Assembly: GCA_937883785.1 (NCBI GenBank)
Contig: CALGDE010000104.1
Span: forward strand, 1-64,000
Reading direction: 5' to 3'
Source: an uncultured cyanobacterium
GTDB lineage: Bacteria > Cyanobacteriota > Cyanobacteriia > CACIAM-69d
Length of the DNA stretch: 64,000 bases
The position numbers and the translations under genes were made by a program. Positions within the stretch are counted from its first letter, which is position 1, and each line of letters opens with the position of its first letter. Under the pieces are notes generated by a model. The model was not told where the DNA came from. It saw nothing but the letters and a program-made list of their open reading frames with translations, and did not search any database. Shown piece after piece: positions 26,020 to 39,984 of the stretch.

Positions 26020-26655
26020 CTACCTCGCTGCTGGGGTCAATAGTTCCTCAAGGGATGGAACTTCGTGGGCGAAACTTTCCCTTTTTTCGAATTTCAATGG
26101 TCCCGCCGCTGACCCCCAAATGTGTTCGTCGGTGTCCACGTCAAAGCCGCGATCGCGACTTACCCAGGAGGTTTCTGTCAGCTCCACCTCACTGACCAAA
26201 TAAGTGGTTTTCCCGTTGCGGGGAATCAAACATTTTCGCCCCGGTTCCACCTCGCCAATAAAGCGATCGCCCTGCTTGCGGAACACCATGGCACAGCCAC
26301 AGCGAGGCACCAAACAATCGCGGGTAATAGAGCCCATAATGTCTGCATTGCGCGACGCCCCCGCGTACATCACCGGGTCGTCCAGCCCGTAGTTCTCAAT
26401 AAACACGCTGCCATCGTCTCGGGCGACTAGCTTGTGAACCCCCTGACGGTAGGGAGTCCACAGGTCGTAGTCATAGGTTTGTTCAGAATAAAATCCCACC
26501 GCATTGAAGAAACCAAAGGGCAGCGGTCGGAAGAAAATACGAATGTGAGCAAAAGTCTTGGGGTCGTCAAAGGACTGCTTTTGGTTGCTAAAATCACCGG
26601 CCATTTGTCTAGCCAAATCAACCAACGTAGCCATTGGCGAAGAAGAATCACTCAT
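26020..26655 (-). CDS. cpeT: Phycoerythrobilin lyase CpeT
   Basis: CpeT/CpcT family (211 aa), chromophore lyase expected to attach phycoerythrobilin to the Cys-165 site of the PE beta subunit. The N-terminal LVDLARQMAGDFSNQKQS and FFRPLPFGFFNAVGFYSEQ are typical, as are YDLWTPYRQGVHKL and the Cys pair CLVPRCGCAMVF. The order cpeS-cpeT-cpeR is as in the known cpeCDESTR operon. A 232-bp gap with no gene separates it from cpeS. Confidence 0.9.
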   Translation of the reverse strand: MSDSSSPMATLVDLARQMAGDFSNQKQSFDDPKTFAHIRIFFRPLPFGFFNAVGFYSEQTYDYDLWTPYRQGVHKLVARDDGSVFIENYGLDDPVMYAGASRNADIMGSITRDCLVPRCGCAMVFRKQGDRFIGEVEPGRKCLIPRNGKTTYLVSEVELTETSWVSRDRGFDVDTDEHIWGSAAGPLKFEKRESFAHEVPSLEELLTPAAR

Positions 26656-26887: not shown

Positions 26888-27436
26888 CTATTGGCTCAGC
26901 GATCGCACTTCCGAAGCAAAAGAAGTGGTCAACACCCCTGTGCCACTGCTAGTCAAAATATTGGATACCCGTAGCCGTAAATTCTGAGTGGCAAACCAAA
27001 TCCGCTCTTCCGCCGCCGCTTGCTCGTAGGGGGTCACCAACACAAACATCCCCTCTTCCGTAAACCGATACTCTCCCACCGCCGGCATTTTCTCTGCATA
27101 GCCCTGGGAACGGAGTAACTGTCCTCGACTTGTATTCTTTAAATCCGGCACCGGCACCAGCAAACAGCTACCAGTAGTTTTCTCATCCTCATCCCAGTCC
27201 GATTCCGCATCCCACTTCATAAAAAACGGGCTGGTGGCTAACGCCGGATCAACGCCATTGTTCTTACACAGCTCAATCACGTCAGCATCATCGGCGGCAC
27301 GGGCAGCAATATCCACCACTGATCGCACCTCCTCAAAATGCTGAAACGCCAAGTTATGACCGCTTCGCTGCGATCGCCACCGCCCAATGGACTGAGCCAC
27401 AAACGTCTGAATATCCATCCTTATATTCGTTTCCAT
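26888..27436 (-). CDS. cpeS: Phycoerythrobilin lyase CpeS
   Basis: CpeS/CpcS family beta-barrel lyase (182 aa), expected to attach phycoerythrobilin to Cys-82-type sites of phycoerythrin. The family start SIGRWRSQRSGHNLAFQHFEEV is clear, with LLVPVPDLKNTSRGQLLRSQGYAEK (in part) and ERIWFATQNLRLRVSNI near the C-terminus. ATG 27436 was chosen; ATG 27418 (MDIQTF) is a good alternative. It lies 38 bp after the small linker gene. Confidence 0.9.
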   Translation of the reverse strand: METNIRMDIQTFVAQSIGRWRSQRSGHNLAFQHFEEVRSVVDIAARAADDADVIELCKNNGVDPALATSPFFMKWDAESDWDEDEKTTGSCLLVPVPDLKNTSRGQLLRSQGYAEKMPAVGEYRFTEEGMFVLVTPYEQAAAEERIWFATQNLRLRVSNILTSSGTGVLTTSFASEVRSLSQ

Positions 27437-27474: not shown

Positions 27475-27726
27475 CTACTCAGGGTCAGGCGCCTCAGACG
27501 CAGAAGCTTCAGCAGCCTCAACGCCAGCCACATTTACCCCTTCAATTTTCCCACCCATGCGAGAAATATTTTGCATCGCCTGCGCCATGCGCCCGTAAGG
27601 AACACGCACCTTATAATTTCCAGTTTTGGAAATGGACTGATTGCAAAAGCCAGAAACGGAAATCGTCACCGTTCGGCTGCCATAATCACCCGTTGCCACT
27701 TGTCCCGTTGCCAACATTCCAGACAT
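27475..27726 (-). CDS. Small CpcD-type phycobilisome linker
   Basis: An 83-aa stand-alone CpcD domain (from ATG 27726 behind AGGTG; GTG 27735 is possible). The core YKVRVPYGRMAQAMQNISRM with GGKIEGV aligns with the rod-capping linker CpcD. In phycocyanin rods CpcD ends the rod and limits its length. Its place between cpeE and cpeS suggests a cap for phycoerythrin rods. The acidic Ala/Glu tail (AEASASEAPDPE) is unusual. The classical cpeCDESTR operon has no such gene at this point, to my knowledge. Confidence 0.8.
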   Translation of the reverse strand: MSGMLATGQVATGDYGSRTVTISVSGFCNQSISKTGNYKVRVPYGRMAQAMQNISRMGGKIEGVNVAGVEAAEASASEAPDPE

Positions 27727-27907
27727 GTTTTGCACCTAGGTAAAGGTTTTCACTCGATCCAAGCCGTCTACGGAGAGGACAGGGTTAGAAAGCATAGTCC
27801 TGATTAAAGGAAATTAAAGAACACGCTTCACTATTCCTGCCCCCGCCTAAGCCAAGTTCCTGAGGCAAAGTTTCCCAAGCCAAATTCACTCACCCCAGGC
27901 ACTTAGA

Positions 27908-28666
27908 CTAGGCTTCGCTAATGCTGACAATCGTTGCGCCAGCTCGCTGCAAGCTTTGAATCCGCTGAGACAGCTGTTGATAGTTCACCTCATAGGTGCG
28001 ACTGCTCAAGCGGGAAACAGGGGTTACGCCCCCTTTAGAGACCTTGATGCGGAAACGCTTACCCGTATTCGCTAAGGTTCCAGCGCTACCAGTGGTGGCA
28101 GTAATCTTAGTGGGCAAATTAGCAGCCAAATCGGTCACCAGCTTAGACTTGCCGCTCACATCATTGGCGGAATTGCCGCGGCTTACGGCAAACACACGGT
28201 TGAAGTCAACGTTCTTGGAGCCCGCTTGGGTTTGCGCCGCACGAATGTAAGGCACAGTATTTTCCCCAAAGCTGGACATATACTCGTCGCTGTCCACATA
28301 AGATGCGATTTCGGAGTCGTAGCCACCTTCGTTGTAGATTGCCACGTGCTCAGAAATCTCAGCCTGATCCCGAGGGGCACGCCCAAGAAAATGCTTGATG
28401 TTGAGCTCGATAAACCGATATTGAGAGGAAGACTCAAAGAATAGTCGGCGATATAAATCCGAGCTGCCCACAGCACTAACAAACTGGCGCACGGTAATAT
28501 CGCCATTGCGCAACAGAGACTCAGCACTGTCCAAGCGCTCCGACTCCATCAAGTGACCGTTACCTAGCACCTGGCGGTACACAGAACGGATCACATTCTG
28601 CAAATCATCCTCAGTAAAGTTGGGACGCAACTCCACCGGATCCGATGATTCAATCCATAGGGACAT
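27908..28666 (-). CDS. cpeE: Phycoerythrin-associated rod linker CpeE
   Basis: Rod linker of 252 aa from ATG 28666 (AGGAGA upstream); a frame continuing to 28828 is leader. It has the phycobilisome linker domain ([41 protein letters not shown] in part; DSDEYMSSFGENTVPY) and a C-terminal CpcD domain from about residue 195 (RFRIKVSKGG; IQSLQRAGATIVSI). Assigned CpeE by being third after cpeC and cpeD; the three paralogues cannot be ranked surely by eye. Linkers join PE hexamers within rods. Confidence 0.85.
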   Translation of the reverse strand: MSLWIESSDPVELRPNFTEDDLQNVIRSVYRQVLGNGHLMESERLDSAESLLRNGDITVRQFVSAVGSSDLYRRLFFESSSQYRFIELNIKHFLGRAPRDQAEISEHVAIYNEGGYDSEIASYVDSDEYMSSFGENTVPYIRAAQTQAGSKNVDFNRVFAVSRGNSANDVSGKSKLVTDLAANLPTKITATTGSAGTLANTGKRFRIKVSKGGVTPVSRLSSRTYEVNYQQLSQRIQSLQRAGATIVSISEA

Positions 28667-28845: not shown

Positions 28846-29601
28846 TTAGTTGATTTCGGTAATGCTAACGATGCGACCGCTAGTCTTATTGATCCGCTTG
28901 ATCTGAGGGGTCATATTGTCGCCATCAACAATATAGGTGGTGCTAGCAAGGCGACGACGGGCACCAAAGGTTTGACCAGACACAACGATTTTAAAGCGCT
29001 TTCCAGCGGCATCAGCGGCGCCGGTACCCCGTGAGCTGGGGGGCTTAATCTCGTTGGAACTGTTGTTGGCAACGGAGTACAAGTTGGAGTCCTTCACCGC
29101 AGAGCTGGTCTCCGCCATACCGCGAACCAAAGCCGACATGCGGTTGTAGCCCACTTGCTTTTGCCCCACCTGACTGGAGGTACCCCGGAAGAAGGGCACG
29201 GTGTTTTCGCCGAACGCTTCTTGGTACTCATCACTATCAATGTAGGAATCGATATCCGCCTCAAACCCTTCGTTGGTATAGGTTTGAACGTGCTGGGAGA
29301 TTTCCGTTTGATCCAAGGGAGCCCGCCCCAACAGATGCTTAAAGTTCAACTCCACAGATCGGTAAGAGGAGGTGGAACCAAAGAAGCGATTGTAATAAAG
29401 CTCAGATTTGGCAATGACACGAACAAATTCACGCACCGAAAGGCTGCCATCAGCCAGCATTGACTCAGCAGAAACAAGGCGCTCGCTGTCCATAACGTAG
29501 GCATTGCCTAGCACTTGCCGATAGACAGCGCGAATAATTTGACTGACATCATCCGGTGAGGCACCGACGCGCAGTTCTGCCACTGGTAGGGTACTAACCA
29601 T
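28846..29601 (-). CDS. cpeD: Phycoerythrin-associated rod linker CpeD
   Basis: Rod linker of 251 aa. Linker domain: [75 protein letters not shown] (in part). C-terminal CpcD domain from about residue 200: [20 protein letters not shown] and [14 protein letters not shown]. It is the second linker of the operon and lies 333 bp after cpeC, with a large hairpin in the gap. Confidence 0.87.
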
Positions 29602-29934: not shown

Positions 29935-30804
29935 CTAGGAAACCGGCGTAATGCTAGCAATTACACCACCTTGACGGTGAATGCGCTTGTACTCGTCAGA
30001 CAGACGATCTAAGGGCACCAAATACACCTGGTTGCTGCGGCGAAACTTGGAAACGCGGTTAACCGCCTTTGAACGGTAAGCCGTAACCTCAACGCGGAAC
30101 ACCTTGCCTCCCTCGCTGGCGCCAACTCCATGGCGAGAACGAGCAGAAACCGCAGGGTCTTGGAAAGACCAGCCCGGGGTTGCGTCAGAGGGAGCCACCA
30201 CTGCCAAAGGAGTCCCTTGGATAGAGGACTTGTACACTTCAGCAGACTTCCCTATGATGCTGCCTTTGTAGTCGCTGCTGGACGCTCCCCGCAGCATCTT
30301 GAACATGCGAGTAAAGCCAACCATGTTCTTACCGGTTTGGGTTTTATAGCCGGTGTAGAACGGCACGGTCATTTCGCCGTACTTTTCCTGGTATTCGTCG
30401 CTATCAATGTAAGCGTCGATATCCGCTCCAAAACCCTCGGTATCAAGGATGCCGCTGTGATACTTGGTTTCCTCAAAGTTGTCAGGCGCCCGACCCAACA
30501 GATGCTTAGTGGTTAGCTCTGTGTAGCGATAGCGGGGGCAGGTATCAAAAAAGCGAGACCGATACGCATCAGACTTAGCCACCTGGCGCACAAACTCACG
30601 AACACTGATATCCCCAGACTTGAGCTGAGTCTCAGATTGATAGGGACGCTCACTTTCCATCAAGTAGGCGTTACCAAAAACCTGGCGATAAACCGCTGCG
30701 ATAACGGCATTCACCTCTTCCTCAGAACGACCGGGTAGAAGTTCGACAGGGGGCGTTTCCTCAAAACGCGCGACGCCTAGTCGAGATGCAGGACCAAAAG
30801 TCAT
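29935..30804 (-). CDS. cpeC: Phycoerythrin-associated rod linker CpeC
   Basis: First linker of the operon, 289 aa from ATG 30804 with AAGGAG nine bases upstream (an ATG at 30840 is less likely). Linker domain: [76 protein letters not shown]-terminal CpcD domain ends YKRIHRQGGVIASI. In known C-PE rods CpeC links the first PE hexamer, nearest the core, to the phycocyanin part. It is the longest of the three linkers, as in other strains. Confidence 0.88.
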   Translation of the reverse strand: MTFGPASRLGVARFEETPPVELLPGRSEEEVNAVIAAVYRQVFGNAYLMESERPYQSETQLKSGDISVREFVRQVAKSDAYRSRFFDTCPRYRYTELTTKHLLGRAPDNFEETKYHSGILDTEGFGADIDAYIDSDEYQEKYGEMTVPFYTGYKTQTGKNMVGFTRMFKMLRGASSSDYKGSIIGKSAEVYKSSIQGTPLAVVAPSDATPGWSFQDPAVSARSRHGVGASEGGKVFRVEVTAYRSKAVNRVSKFRRSNQVYLVPLDRLSDEYKRIHRQGGVIASITPVS

Positions 30805-31241
30805 GCGGACTGTCTCCTTAAATGCGTTTTCTTTAATCAAGATTCGAACATTGAAGCTTCAGGGTCACAAGAAACTTGAAACAATTTGAAGGAGCAAGCT
30901 TCCACATATTTCAAATTAAACTCTAAAGTTTTTTCCTGTTCCCGAATCAGTGCTGTGTATATAAGGGTTCCTCAACAGGCTCCCTTCAAGTTTTTCAAAT
31001 AAACTAGTTTTTAACCCAAGGTCAAAACAAGTTGAATTTCCATCAAACTTGAAGCAACTAATCGCTTCCGCTGTGGCAGGTGCCAGATAAAATCTGCTCC
31101 AAAACTTTCATCAAAAGCCTGAAACAAATGCTTATCTTGCCCACGCCAACCGGGCTCTAAGGATTTGTCCTTCTTACCCATCATAGGTAGCGAATTGATG
31201 AGAATCCCTTAAGTTTTATTACCGTCACCTATCAATTCAAA
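30805..31241 (-). promoter_or_regulatory. Upstream region of the cpeC operon with twin palindromes
   Basis: A 437-bp spacer between the cpcL-like gene and cpeC. Two similar blocks are seen: CAAATTAAACTCTAAAGTTT (30912-30931) and CAAATAAACTAGTTT (30997-31011), each a direct-repeat half (CAAATnAAACT) fused to a palindrome (AAACT...AGTTT). They could be operators for a light- or CpeR-linked regulator. At 31192-31199/31231-31238 GAATTGAT/ATCAATTC form a hairpin just after the cpcL stop. No consensus CcaR site was seen. Regulatory roles are inference. Confidence 0.5.
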
Positions 31242-31991
31242 CTAAATTTGAATAATCCCAAAGGTTCCTAGGACTACGGCCACAAGCAGCCCTAGCACGA
31301 GGCTGACGCCGCCAAAGACGATGATTTTTCCCAGCACCTGAGCCGCCAATGGGTAGGGAGGCTTTTGCCATTCCCAGCGGTAGGTGGGAGCGTTGGAATC
31401 CTGGAAGTAGCCCAAATCCTCAAGCTGCTGGCGATGTTCATCGCCGTAACGGGGCATACGTGCTTTGGGGAGTTCCCCTTCAAAGCGCTGGGGCAAAACC
31501 CGACGCCGCTGAAAAGGCACCATTGAATCCCCAAAATTGGCTTCGTATTCGTCACTAGTCACTAGCTCACGAATAAAGCCCTGTAGCCCTTTTGTGGCAA
31601 GGACAATGGACCATGCCAGCTCTTCCCGCTGGCTATACACGTCACGCCCGAGGATGCGCTGTACCGCTAAGCGCACAAAGCGATAGTTATTGTTGCACTC
31701 GTAGTTTTGTTCTCGAAAAACTTGGGAAGTGGCTAGCCCTTCCACAAATTCTCGCACGGAGATTTGTCCGGCTCGCAGTTGGGATTCCAAATTTTTCTGG
31801 CGATTGTGGGCCAGGAACTGCTGTTCGTTGAAAATTTGGCGGTAAGCGGCAGAAATAATGAGGTTAATGTCCCCTTCGTCCAGGATTCCCCCTGATTCAG
31901 GGATGGCGGCGGTTTCGTCCCCCGCAACCTCAAAGCCATTTACCCGGTGGTTGCGACTAGACGGGTTATAGGTGAGTAATGGCAGCGTCAT
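31242..31991 (-). CDS. cpcL: Membrane-anchored rod linker, CpcL (CpcG2)-type
   Basis: CpcG-family linker of 249 aa from ATG 31991 (start MTLPLLTYNPSSRNHRV is the family start). The linker domain has SAAYRQIFNEQQFL, LESQLRAGQISVREFVEGL, VQRILGRDVYSQREELAWSI and DSMVPFQRRRVLPQRF. Unlike core-binding CpcG, it ends in one hydrophobic segment (about residues 220-249: GKIIVFGGVSLVLGLLVAVV), the mark of CpcL/CpcG2. CpcL rods lack the allophycocyanin core, sit on the thylakoid membrane, and in other strains send energy mainly to photosystem I. Position directly upstream of cpeC suggests PE-bearing CpcL rods. Confidence 0.87.
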   Translation of the reverse strand: MTLPLLTYNPSSRNHRVNGFEVAGDETAAIPESGGILDEGDINLIISAAYRQIFNEQQFLAHNRQKNLESQLRAGQISVREFVEGLATSQVFREQNYECNNNYRFVRLAVQRILGRDVYSQREELAWSIVLATKGLQGFIRELVTSDEYEANFGDSMVPFQRRRVLPQRFEGELPKARMPRYGDEHRQQLEDLGYFQDSNAPTYRWEWQKPPYPLAAQVLGKIIVFGGVSLVLGLLVAVVLGTFGIIQI

Positions 31992-32554: not shown

Positions 32555-33241
32555 ATGAATCTCGAGGACATTAAGCAGGCGTTGACGGACGGGGATCCTC
32601 CGGCACGGGTTAAGGCCATGCGGCTACTGCGGGATTATCCAGCGGAGGTGTCGGTCCCCCTGTTGGAGGGCCAAATGGGACACGGGGATTTTTTGGTGCG
32701 CTCATTTATTGCCATGGGACTGGGGCTGTATCCCAGCGATCGCACCGTGAAAACCCTGCTCCAGCTATTGGACGACGGCGACCATAGCGTGCGGGCAGAG
32801 GCGGCGGGCGCCCTGGGGCGATGCAGCGAGGGGGTGATTCCCGATTTGGTGGCAGCTTTCCGCCGAGATGACAACTGGCTGGTACGGCGCAGCATTTTGG
32901 AGTCGCTGGTGGAATTTCGTCAACCAGCGGCATTGATGGAGGTGTGTGAGCTGGCGATCACTGGGGATAACGTTAGCGTTACCGAAGCGGGAATTGATGC
33001 GCTGACGCTGCTGAGTCAAACGGAATTTTCAGACCGGGCGCTAGATCTGCTACTGCCCTTCGTGTCCGACGACTGGTGGCAAGTTCGCTGGCGTACGGCT
33101 CGCGCCTTGGGATTTTTTACGCAGGAGAAGGCGATCGCCGCTCGGCAGTTTTTAGCGAAGGACGATGACCATCGGGTTGTGGGGGGCGCCATGGAAGCCG
33201 TGATTGTGCCCGATGGCGATCGCGGTGATGCCGATGGCTAG
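32555..33241 (+). CDS. HEAT-repeat protein
   Basis: Soluble 228-aa protein built of about six HEAT units, e.g. DPPARVKAMRLLRDYPAEV, DHSVRAEAAGALGRCSEGV, DDNWLVRRSILESLVEF and DDWWQVRWRTARALGFF. The fold is shared with E/F-type bilin lyases (CpcE/CpeY/CpeZ) and NblB, and its place among pigment genes suggests that. However, similar HEAT proteins seem widespread in cyanobacteria without phycoerythrin, so a lyase role is not claimed. The stop TAG is formed with the first base of a dispersed repeat. Confidence 0.75.
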   Translation: MNLEDIKQALTDGDPPARVKAMRLLRDYPAEVSVPLLEGQMGHGDFLVRSFIAMGLGLYPSDRTVKTLLQLLDDGDHSVRAEAAGALGRCSEGVIPDLVAAFRRDDNWLVRRSILESLVEFRQPAALMEVCELAITGDNVSVTEAGIDALTLLSQTEFSDRALDLLLPFVSDDWWQVRWRTARALGFFTQEKAIAARQFLAKDDDHRVVGGAMEAVIVPDGDRGDADG

Positions 33242-33384: not shown

Positions 33385-34239
33385 TTAGGAATTGTCCACC
33401 AAGCTATCGCGGGTGCTGCGGCGGGTGAAGCCGTTCCATACGTCTAGCTCGTCAGGCGATCGCCCCAGCAAGGTTGCCCGCAAATTCTCCGGCAGCCCCT
33501 GAACGCGATAAAAGTCTGCACCGGTAATGCCTTGGGGGTTTTCCATCTGCACCCCTGTCAAATCCGCCCCGCGAAAATCCACCTGATCCAGTTGAGCACT
33601 GTTAAACCGGGCATTGACCAAGTAAGCGCCCGTAAAGCTAGCGCGGCGCAGGTCTGCACTGCTGAAGGCCGCGTCTGCCAAATTTGCTCCGGTGAAATCA
33701 GCACCGCTTAGGTACGCCCCCAAAAAATTTGCTCCAGACAGGTCCGCCCCGCGACAGTTCACTGTGTGCAGGTATGCGCCTCCCAGCTGCGCCCGGGGAC
33801 CGATCGCCCCACAACGACGATGGTTAAAGCCCTCCGGCCACTGGGTTTCTTGGTCATACAGCGCCACCGTCAGCAGGGTCTCATCCAACACCGCCCCTCG
33901 CAAATCTGCCCCGCGAATATCCGAACGATTTAGGGATGCTCCCGTAAAATTCGCCCCTTGCAGGTCTGCCCCACGCAGGTCTGCCCCACGCAGGTCCGCC
34001 CGCTGCAGCCATGCTCCTTTCAAGCTGGTCTCCCGCAGGCGAGCATTGGTAAACAGTACCCCCACCAGGTAAGCATCAGCCAAGTCAGCGCCGTCTAAAT
34101 TGACCTGGTATAAATCCAGCCGCTCAGCCTTTCCCCCCGAAAAGGGCAAGTCTGCGGGTGCCGTGTCGTTAGCACGAGCCTGAAAGGTTTTTCCTTGGGC
34201 GATCGCCTCTTGCAATGGGGGGGGAAACGCAGGGGTCAT
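33385..34239 (-). CDS. Pentapeptide-repeat protein
   Basis: 284-aa protein with two blocks of A(D/N)LxG repeats (about residues 45-125 and 165-250) that would fold as right-handed quadrilateral beta-helices. They are split by the insert YDQETQWPEGFNHRRCGAIGP, common in cyanobacterial members of the family. The function of these proteins is generally unknown. It has no signal peptide. Its 3' end lies 15 bp from the dispersed repeat copy. Confidence 0.88.
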   Translation of the reverse strand: MTPAFPPPLQEAIAQGKTFQARANDTAPADLPFSGGKAERLDLYQVNLDGADLADAYLVGVLFTNARLRETSLKGAWLQRADLRGADLRGADLQGANFTGASLNRSDIRGADLRGAVLDETLLTVALYDQETQWPEGFNHRRCGAIGPRAQLGGAYLHTVNCRGADLSGANFLGAYLSGADFTGANLADAAFSSADLRRASFTGAYLVNARFNSAQLDQVDFRGADLTGVQMENPQGITGADFYRVQGLPENLRATLLGRSPDELDVWNGFTRRSTRDSLVDNS

Positions 34240-35205: not shown

Positions 35206-35482
35206 GAACACCGGATAACAGGGACATCTTGAACCATGAGGCCACATGAAGCCCTTAAAATAAATCCTTAAAATTTGTATCACCCAGTTGACAATAACTA
35301 TCGATTAGGGAGCTCCATGTTGGGAGCTTTCTGCTGAGCGTAAATTCAAATTTAGACACATTGGCGATGTTTTTCTTGGTATTACGAAACGTGTCTTTGT
35401 TTTTGTGTAAGTCAGGGCGACTCCACAAGTTTTCCTATACTTGAAATACCTTTCAAGGGCGCGATATTGCAACCTTTTTTTT
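35206..35482 (+). promoter_or_regulatory. pebA upstream region
   Basis: No gene. A hairpin AGCTCC-ATGTTG-GGAGCT (35311-35328) followed by TTTCT may end the lyase transcript. AGACAC (35354-35359) and GTGTCT (35391-35396), followed by TTGTTTTTG, form a second candidate stop in the pebA leader. TTGACA occurs at 35289 without an obvious -10. Confidence 0.45.
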
Positions 35483-36220
35483 ATGTATAAGCCTTTTCAA
35501 AAGCACCTCGAAGAAGAGATACATCGGCTATTTGATTTGCAAACTGTGCCTTTGCCCGATGGTTTAGAACGTCAGGTTTCTGAGCGCGGCAAAAACCCGG
35601 CAACCATTCAAAGTTGGAGCTATAGCTGTCCTCAACTCAGAAAGATTCGATACACCTATATTGACGGCGGTACTACGATTCAGGTCTTTAACAGTGTGAT
35701 CTATCCTAGCCATCAATACGATATTCCCCTGTTAGGCATCGACTTACTATCTTTTAATCGTCGAAAAAATCTCGTTGTTGTGGATTTTCAGCCCCTATTT
35801 CAAGATGCTGATTATCAGGCGAAATACATTGAGCCCATGCAAGAGATGTACAAGTCTTTTGACGATTTGGCTCAGAATTTGGGGATGAAGTTCTACGACG
35901 CAAATCGATATTTTTCCAAGTATTTAATTTTTGCAAAAGCAGACGCAGACATGGTTCCCACGCGGGTGCTAGAAGCTTTTAAGACATACGTTGCAAAGTA
36001 TTTTGAAATGGTGGGCGGAGCAGCGCCTTTGACGGATCCGTCTGATATTCAGCGAATTGTGCAGGCTCAGAAAGATTACGACCAATACAGTGCTGAGCGA
36101 GACCCTGCCCACGGCTTATTCAGCAGCTATTTTGGACACGAATGGGCTGAGCGCTTTTTATATGAATTCCTATTTGAAGATGCGCGACCGGTGGAAGCGG
36201 CCGTAGGCCGCCGTCGCTAG
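35483..36220 (+). CDS. pebA: 15,16-dihydrobiliverdin:ferredoxin oxidoreductase PebA
   Basis: Ferredoxin-dependent bilin reductase (245 aa from ATG 35483; a TTG at 35441 is unlikely) converting biliverdin IXa to 15,16-dihydrobiliverdin. Typical stretches are SWSYSCPQLRKIRYTYIDGG, QVFNSVIYPSHQYDIPLLGIDLLSF (in part) and NLVVVDFQPLF; the conserved Asp of the active site lies in the last of these regions. The C-terminus has DPAHGLFSSYFGHEWAERFL. It precedes pebB by 177 bp and supplies its substrate. Confidence 0.93.
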   Translation: MYKPFQKHLEEEIHRLFDLQTVPLPDGLERQVSERGKNPATIQSWSYSCPQLRKIRYTYIDGGTTIQVFNSVIYPSHQYDIPLLGIDLLSFNRRKNLVVVDFQPLFQDADYQAKYIEPMQEMYKSFDDLAQNLGMKFYDANRYFSKYLIFAKADADMVPTRVLEAFKTYVAKYFEMVGGAAPLTDPSDIQRIVQAQKDYDQYSAERDPAHGLFSSYFGHEWAERFLYEFLFEDARPVEAAVGRRR

Positions 36221-36397: not shown

Positions 36398-37138
36398 ATG
36401 ACCCTATACCAGCCGTTTTTGGACCACGCGATCGCCACCTTAAATGAACGGTTGGACTTGCAGCCCTATCCTATTCCGGCGGGTTATGAAAAGAAAGAAG
36501 CTCGCGTTGGCAGCAAGACCAGAGCCCAAACGGTAACTACCAGCAGCTATGCGGTTTGCTCAAAGAAGCTACGGCAAATCCGGGCAGCCCATGTGCAAGG
36601 GGGTGGTTTGGTGCAAGTACTAAACTTCGTTATTTTTCCAAATCTTGAGTACGATTTACCATTCTTTGGTGCTGACTTAGTTACCTTGCCGGGGGGGCAT
36701 TTAATCGCTATTGATATGCAGCCCTTGTTCGGTGGCAGTGATGGGTATCGAGCGAAGTATGCGGATCCAGTAATGGAAACGTTCCAAAAGTATCAAGCTG
36801 ATTTACCCTGGGGTGGCGATTTTCCTGAGGAAGCCAAGGCGTTTTTCTCACCAGCATTTTTGTGGACTAGACCTAAGGAAAATACGGCGGTTGAAACCCA
36901 TGTTTTCAATGCGTTTAAAGATTATTTAACGCTGTATTTAGATTTTGTTGATGCGTCCGTTGAAGCGCCCATTGGTGATCGTCCCGAGATCCAAGAAGCC
37001 CACTTACGATACCTGAGATATCGGGCAGAAAAAGATCCAGCTCGAGGAATGTTCAAACGGTTTTACGGTGAAGAATGGACCGAAGAATATATCCATGGAT
37101 TTTTATTTGATCTGGAACGTCAGCTAACCGCTGCGTAA
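36398..37138 (+). CDS. pebB: Phycoerythrobilin:ferredoxin oxidoreductase PebB
   Basis: Second reductase (246 aa), taking 15,16-dihydrobiliverdin to 3Z-phycoerythrobilin, the C-PE chromophore. Recognised by [41 protein letters not shown] (in part), [12 protein letters not shown] and the C-terminal [20 protein letters not shown]. Known PebA/PebB pairs channel the intermediate. It ends at a strong terminator. Confidence 0.94.
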
Positions 37139-37208: not shown

Positions 37209-37796
37209 TTAAAATGCCTCTAGAGCAGCAATTAATGGCGCAAAATGTTCGTTGATCATGGCAGTTAGGTCGTCGTCGTGAGCAGACTGACAGTGCTTTT
37301 GTCCTGCGATCGCCAACGCCCGAATTCCCACCACCATTGCCGGCAAAGGCACCTTCAGCTCCTCATACAACAGCGCCATATATCCCAGCCCTTCCTGGCT
37401 TAAATACTGGGTGCTGTTGCCCGCCAAGCCGTAGCTAACACAGCGTAGAAACTGCCAAAAATCTCGCCAGCACGCCTCCGCACGATGCTTAGGATAAAGG
37501 TCACCGCCGCTATCGGTAATGCCCGGAAAGCCAATCAGAACCTGTCCCCGTGCCTCCGTCACAATGGTGCTGGCAAAGTCACGAAACTGTCGAGAGACCT
37601 GGAGCTTAATCGGGTCCAACGTGTCTTCTGCCTCCTCGCTGATGGCATTGATATCCTCATCACGCAAATAGCGAAATTCATTGTCCGCCGCTTGAAATCT
37701 TTCAAGGACGGCAGCGGGCAGGCGCTCTTCCCAAGACGTAAAGCTAACAATGCGGGCTTTGGGAATTAGCTCTTTGGCGCGATCGCTAAGTTGCAT
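37209..37796 (-). CDS. Divergent phycobilisome-type globin (phycobiliprotein-like)
   Basis: 195-aa protein with the phycobiliprotein fold but far from any standard subunit. The block HRAEACWRDFWQFLRCVSYG (residues 105-123) matches the bilin-site region [20 protein letters not shown] of CpeB, so C109 corresponds to the Cys-82/84 chromophore site. The Arg and Asp that grip the bilin are kept, while Trp, Phe and C119 are unusual. The C-terminal half LYEELKVPLPAMVVGIRAL matches the later globin helices. The N-terminus lacks the usual X-Y helix sequence. Possible roles: bilin carrier, assembly factor or minor subunit. It lies between pebB and cpeB, on the opposite strand. Confidence 0.78.
   Translation of the reverse strand: MQLSDRAKELIPKARIVSFTSWEERLPAAVLERFQAADNEFRYLRDEDINAISEEAEDTLDPIKLQVSRQFRDFASTIVTEARGQVLIGFPGITDSGGDLYPKHRAEACWRDFWQFLRCVSYGLAGNSTQYLSQEGLGYMALLYEELKVPLPAMVVGIRALAIAGQKHCQSAHDDDLTAMINEHFAPLIAALEAF

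Positions 37797-38269: not shown

Positions 38270-39347
<1,078 letters not shown>

Positions 39348-39424: not shown

Positions 39425-39984
<560 letters not shown>

Follow-up and report, generated by a model that had tools for sequence, protein, structure and literature searches.

The CpcL-PBS whose structure is solved is that of Synechocystis sp. PCC 6803 (CpcL, also CpcG2 or Sll1471; PDB 8hfq), in which the positions of CpcL that contact bilins of the basal phycocyanin (PC) hexamer, among them N55, Q57 and Q58, are known (PMC10322944). In this strain cpcL lies in a CcaSR cluster, there is no phycoerythrin (PE), and the rods are extended by CpcC1/CpcC2. For Nostoc punctiforme, the part of PMC12461855 that cites Hirose et al. 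(2010) places PE genes and cpcL in one CcaSR operon. A survey of 65 genomes found cpcL in 42 of them, mostly in phycobiliprotein operons, with CcaS accompanying only 11 of the 42; rods without cpcC are not discussed in the part of the survey available to us (Wang and Chen, 2022; PMC9415938). Marine Synechococcus strains with PE have neither cpcC nor cpcD, and each of their rods was accordingly taken to contain a single PC hexamer, at the base; the available part of that work calls the rod-core linkers CpcG and does not treat a membrane-anchored CpcL (Six et al., 2007; PMC2246261). Lastly, as far as the accessible text of PMC13342260 goes, Cyanobium sp. NIVA-CYA 375 is PE-rich and has cpcL and no CcaS/RcaE, and its gene content led to the proposal that it has CpcL rods carrying PE discs in the absence of chromatic acclimation.

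Given these published precedents, the occurrence of cpcL beside PE genes that we describe here adds one more example to a kind already known. The locus shares with N. punctiforme the grouping of cpcL with PE linker genes, with PE-containing marine Synechococcus the loss of cpcC and cpcD in the presence of PE, and with Cyanobium the combination of PE and cpcL without CcaS/RcaE. Unlike in the N. punctiforme operon as presented there, which is regulated by CcaSR, here cpcL heads the series cpeC-cpeD-cpeE-cpeS-cpeT and our searches of the genome did not find CcaSR. The genome likewise differs from that of Synechocystis in having neither CcaSR nor CpcC, and in that PE linker genes adjoin cpcL. The window, that is, the whole stretch of 64,000 nt that was analyzed, contains the following features, of which the interval 29935–31991 extends from the stop of cpeC to the start of cpcL; cpeB and cpeA belong to the Phycobilisome family and were named by sequence and context.

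26020..26655, minus strand: cpeT-family bilin lyase gene
26888..27436, minus strand: cpeS-family bilin lyase gene
27475..27735, minus strand: gene for an 86-aa CpcD-domain protein, possible PE rod cap
27908..28666, minus strand: cpeE, PE rod linker (PF00427 plus CpcD domain)
28846..29601, minus strand: cpeD, PE rod linker (PF00427 plus weak CpcD domain)
29935..30804, minus strand: cpeC, PE rod linker (PF00427 plus strong CpcD domain; ATG at 30804)
30805..31241, minus strand: intergenic gap cpcL-cpeC, 437 bp from the cpcL stop to the cpeC ATG
31242..31991, minus strand: cpcL, rod-membrane linker of CpcG2 type, 249 aa (ATG at 31991, stop at 31242)
31263..31349, minus strand: C-terminal hydrophobic helix of CpcL (AlphaFold helix, residues 215-243)
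31506..31877, minus strand: PF00427 PBS_linker_poly domain of CpcL (residues 39-162)
35441..36220, plus strand: pebA, 15,16-dihydrobiliverdin:ferredoxin oxidoreductase
36398..37138, plus strand: pebB, phycoerythrobilin:ferredoxin oxidoreductase
38793..39347, plus strand: cpeB, PE beta subunit
39490..39984, plus strand: cpeA, PE alpha subunit

The gene at the head of the cluster is an ordinary cpcL; the original prediction had it as CpcL-type. A Pfam search of its product returned a single PBS_linker_poly domain (PF00427, residues 39–162, 153 bits) of the CpcG/CpcL kind and no CpcD domain. The top match among solved structures was Synechocystis CpcL (8hfq_n; 308 bits over residues 1–247), which has the same domain plan and 56% full-length identity, versus 198 bits for CpcG from the same species; 8hfq_n is also the closest PDB fold to the AlphaFold model. 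When full-length sequences of 98 and of 175 proteins were placed in trees, CpcL separated from CpcG and the window protein fell among CpcL, away from core-binding CpcG. The split costs two changes and not one, the second being, in the 98-protein tree, a CpcL cut by the contig end (the row labelled CpcG from L050, as well as L198, are CpcL sequences truncated in this way). In the same tree, the window protein and its homolog from the sister genome formed a separate pair on a long branch (0.55). A tree of the linker part only was poorly resolved, with the CpcG of the family and the second CpcL of this genome close together and a constraint joining all CpcG improving the likelihood (AU p 0.77); the nearest rows to the window protein were still CpcL. 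Additionally, the signature N55/Q57/Q58 is kept in the window protein and in every CpcL aligned, whereas these positions read S/H/Q in the separate CpcG1 encoded in the genome (contig C119) and F/gap/H in most sampled CpcG; N55, though not Q57 or Q58, was part of a search pattern by which the set had been assembled, and is partly circular as evidence. On the basis of the bit scores, the trees, this signature and a hydrophobic helix that replaces the soluble C-terminal core-binding region, we rejected a core-binding CpcG identity.

This helix had been predicted at about residues 220–249, and both analyses applied here place it there or close by: the Kyte-Doolittle hydrophobicity (19-aa window) peaks at 2.94 at residue 223, a value reached by one in 5000 shuffles of the protein, and AlphaFold2 modelled one helix at residues 215–243, with modest overall confidence (pLDDT 68.8). 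The same measure ranged from 1.82 to 3.09 in 84 CpcL proteins and did not exceed 1.31 in 20 CpcG. A C-terminal hydrophobic helix is also a feature of Synechocystis CpcL, and the predicted helix supports a role of the window protein as a membrane anchor.

The original prediction went further and suggested that PE attaches directly to the membrane. In its strongest form this would place the PF00427 domain of CpcL in a PE hexamer, and the photosystem I antenna would be core-less, membrane-bound and built from PE throughout, with no phycocyanin intermediate. The gene order with cpeC, cpeD and cpeE could be read in this way, as could the long branch of the window and sister proteins and some private substitutions at conserved sites (R84 to E, C109 to A, D141 to R and F176 to K). 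The residues at the base of the rod, however, argue otherwise: 14 of the 15 contact positions are the same as in Synechocystis CpcL (R16, N55, Q57, Q58, S70, Q71, R112, W127, I129, R163, R169, R178, R181 and Y182), the sole change being K73 to R, and, apart from one or two single-site changes, nine further PE-adjacent CpcL keep the same contact set. The list of contacts derives from a PC-only rod and may be compatible with other hexamers. Also against an all-PE rod are the presence of a cpcBA operon in the genome and the same base chemistry in CpcG, which is obliged to bind rods to the core. Because the PC bilin-contact residues are retained, a basal PC disc is expected between CpcL and PE; a PE rod bound straight to the membrane is unlikely, and an antenna made wholly of PE is, in our judgement, very improbable.

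As originally described, cpcL lies 437 bp upstream of cpeC on the same strand. The gene order cpcL-cpeC-cpeD-cpeE-(small CpcD)-cpeS-cpeT recurs at 87–95% identity in the sister genome, L010. In another family, four genomes (L196, L204, L206 and L216) show cpcL-cpeC-cpeD-...-cpeE-cpeS(-cpeT), in some cases with one more linker. In these four genomes cpcL and cpeC are separated by 374–448 bp; a long gap is therefore usual, and a separate promoter or leader for cpeC may be located there. About 75 nt directly past the cpcL stop (31170–31241, minus strand) are almost identical in the sister genome, and the remainder of the gap has diverged. Consensus scans of this long gap found neither a promoter nor a terminator, and cpcL and cpeC may or may not be co-transcribed; comparison across families found no common promoter motif, with only the ribosome-binding stretch before cpeC aligning. 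A regulatory RNA in the gap was considered and received no support, with no match in Rfam and folding z-scores between -0.7 and -1.6.

By our count, about 48 of 145 genomes of the class have a membrane-type CpcL, and about a dozen of these have PE linker genes in the vicinity, on the strand of cpcL. The association with PE linkers changes state 10 times on a tree of 133 CpcL, a number that is approximate as many branches are weak. The conserved order in the sister genome and in the second family, as well as this recurrent association, support a functional tie of cpcL to PE rods, as judged from comparative data. Alternatively, the gene may simply have hitch-hiked into a PE island while its product builds short, PC-only rods unrelated to PE, given that elsewhere in cyanobacteria cpcL adjoins antenna genes as varied as cpcBA, pebAB, pecBA and isiA and that the gap to cpeC is long. 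Conservation of the order in two families and the repeated, if approximately counted, origin of the association argue against hitch-hiking, and without cpcC (see below) a rod of PC alone could not exceed one hexamer unless lengthened by PE linkers. We consider this alternative unlikely, although less so than a rod made only of PE.

Several other genes surround these. A HEAT-repeat protein, weakly similar to NblB, is encoded at 32555–33241 (plus strand), divergently from cpcL, and a pentapeptide-repeat protein at 33385–34239 (minus strand); in the second family with the same order, pentapeptide and CpcS-like genes also flank cpcL. Between pebB and cpeB (37209–37796, minus strand) lies a gene for a divergent phycobiliprotein-like protein of 195 aa (PF00502), which scores about 48 bits to allophycocyanin alpha chains, is possibly AplA-like and is found near cpcL in other genomes too.

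The inventory of linkers in the genome indicates how such rods could be built. The statements on the whole genome, which is 99.99% complete, rest on domain and protein searches. All nine PF00427 and six PF01383 domains were assigned, their owners being ApcE, CpcG, two CpcL, CpeC, CpeD, CpeE, ApcC, FNR and the 86-aa CpcD-like protein; neither this inventory nor a reading of the PC operon revealed cpcC or cpcD. The single cpcBA operon has the order cpcB-cpcA-cpcE, with no cpcC or cpcD (L137:6611-8820; G000:C144), whereas four relatives of the same family that by count have no PE linkers (5–6 PF00427 domains each) have a PC operon with cpcB-cpcA-cpcC plus a small CpcD-domain gene. Searching with CpcC as query found no CpcC in the sister genome either, the extra match being a 620-aa two-domain linker that is nearest to a PE-type linker. 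This protein (L145; G001:C656) contains two near-identical PF00427 domains and has no counterpart in the window genome. The 86-aa CpcD-domain protein of the PE linker cluster is 90% identical in the sister genome and is possibly a cap that replaces CpcD.

Since cpcC and cpcD are lost, a CpcL rod could be extended beyond one PC hexamer only by PE, through CpeC, CpeD and CpeE, and we infer that the rod here would combine one PC hexamer with PE discs that these three linkers hold. CpeC is the only rod linker here with a full-strength CpcD domain, and is therefore likely to be what CpcL or CpcG pairs with across the basal PC disc.

A second CpcL of 234 aa, also with a C-terminal helix, is encoded elsewhere in the genome (L136:7714-8418; G000:C109). 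Upstream of it (L136:3604-7539) are three genes of the isiA family, the last of which codes for a 520-aa IsiA-PsaL fusion (PF00421 plus PF02605), and this isiA-cpcL cluster recurs in many genomes. It matches the iron-responsive isiA2-isiA3-isiA4-cpcG2 cluster of Leptolyngbya JSC-1 and Trichodesmium (PMC12090762). The rods of photosystem I could mainly be built on this second CpcL.

The phrase green-light rod in the original prediction could also be understood as control by light color, that is, as a PE and CpcL operon switched by CcaSR in the manner of CA1/CA2. Such an arrangement is published for N. punctiforme (PMC12461855), and ccaR and/or ccaS adjoin other CpcL-PE loci (L049, L054, L072, L085, L158, L195 and L212). 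The genome, however, did not yield a CcaS ortholog (best partial match 40%, best GAF 43%), its best match to CcaR was at paralog level (41%), and the five GAF domains examined all lack the Glu, Leu and Lys positions common to CcaS and RcaE, so that no RcaE-type sensor was found among them; the same search in a control genome (G011) retrieved a true CcaS (62%). We take these three positions to be the protochromic triad. The gene order here differs from that of the N. punctiforme operon, which is presumably cpeC-cpcG2-cpeR1. In the absence of CcaS, CcaR and an RcaE-type sensor, green-red control of the CA1/CA2 kind via CcaSR is not expected, and we rejected it; of the explanations considered it is the one to which we give the least credit. 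Together, these results retain one part of the role in PE rods first proposed for this CpcL, the tie to PE supported by conserved gene order and recurrent association, but neither the direct attachment of PE to the membrane nor control by green light.

The explanation that we favor, and hold with reasonable though not full confidence, is that an ordinary CpcL anchors a rod of the type PC1-PEn, without a core, through which green light is passed on to photosystem I. The PF00427 domain of CpcL would lie inside a phycocyanin hexamer, and the C-terminal helix would tether this hexamer to the thylakoid membrane, as a rule at photosystem I. The grouping of cpcL with PE linker genes would reflect that PE discs extend every rod in this genus: with cpcC and cpcD gone, the CpcD domain of CpeC would dock on CpcL, or on CpcG, inside the one PC hexamer at the base, after which the PE discs would be added by CpeC, CpeD and CpeE. 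Here the composition of the rod, its attachment to photosystem I and its joint expression with PE are putative, as deduced from gene content and predicted structure.

What merits testing is the combination of a CpcL in a PE cluster with the loss of cpcC and cpcD and of CcaSR. The solved CpcL rod contains only PC and is extended by CpcC, whereas in this genus rods would grow only through PE linkers. That cpcL sits with PE genes in a genome without the CcaSR switch argues that the grouping of PE and CpcL does not depend on chromatic acclimation. With cpcC and cpcD absent, the genus offers a clean natural case for a PC1-PEn rod through which green light may reach photosystem I and in which CpeC may dock on CpcL as CpcC1 does.
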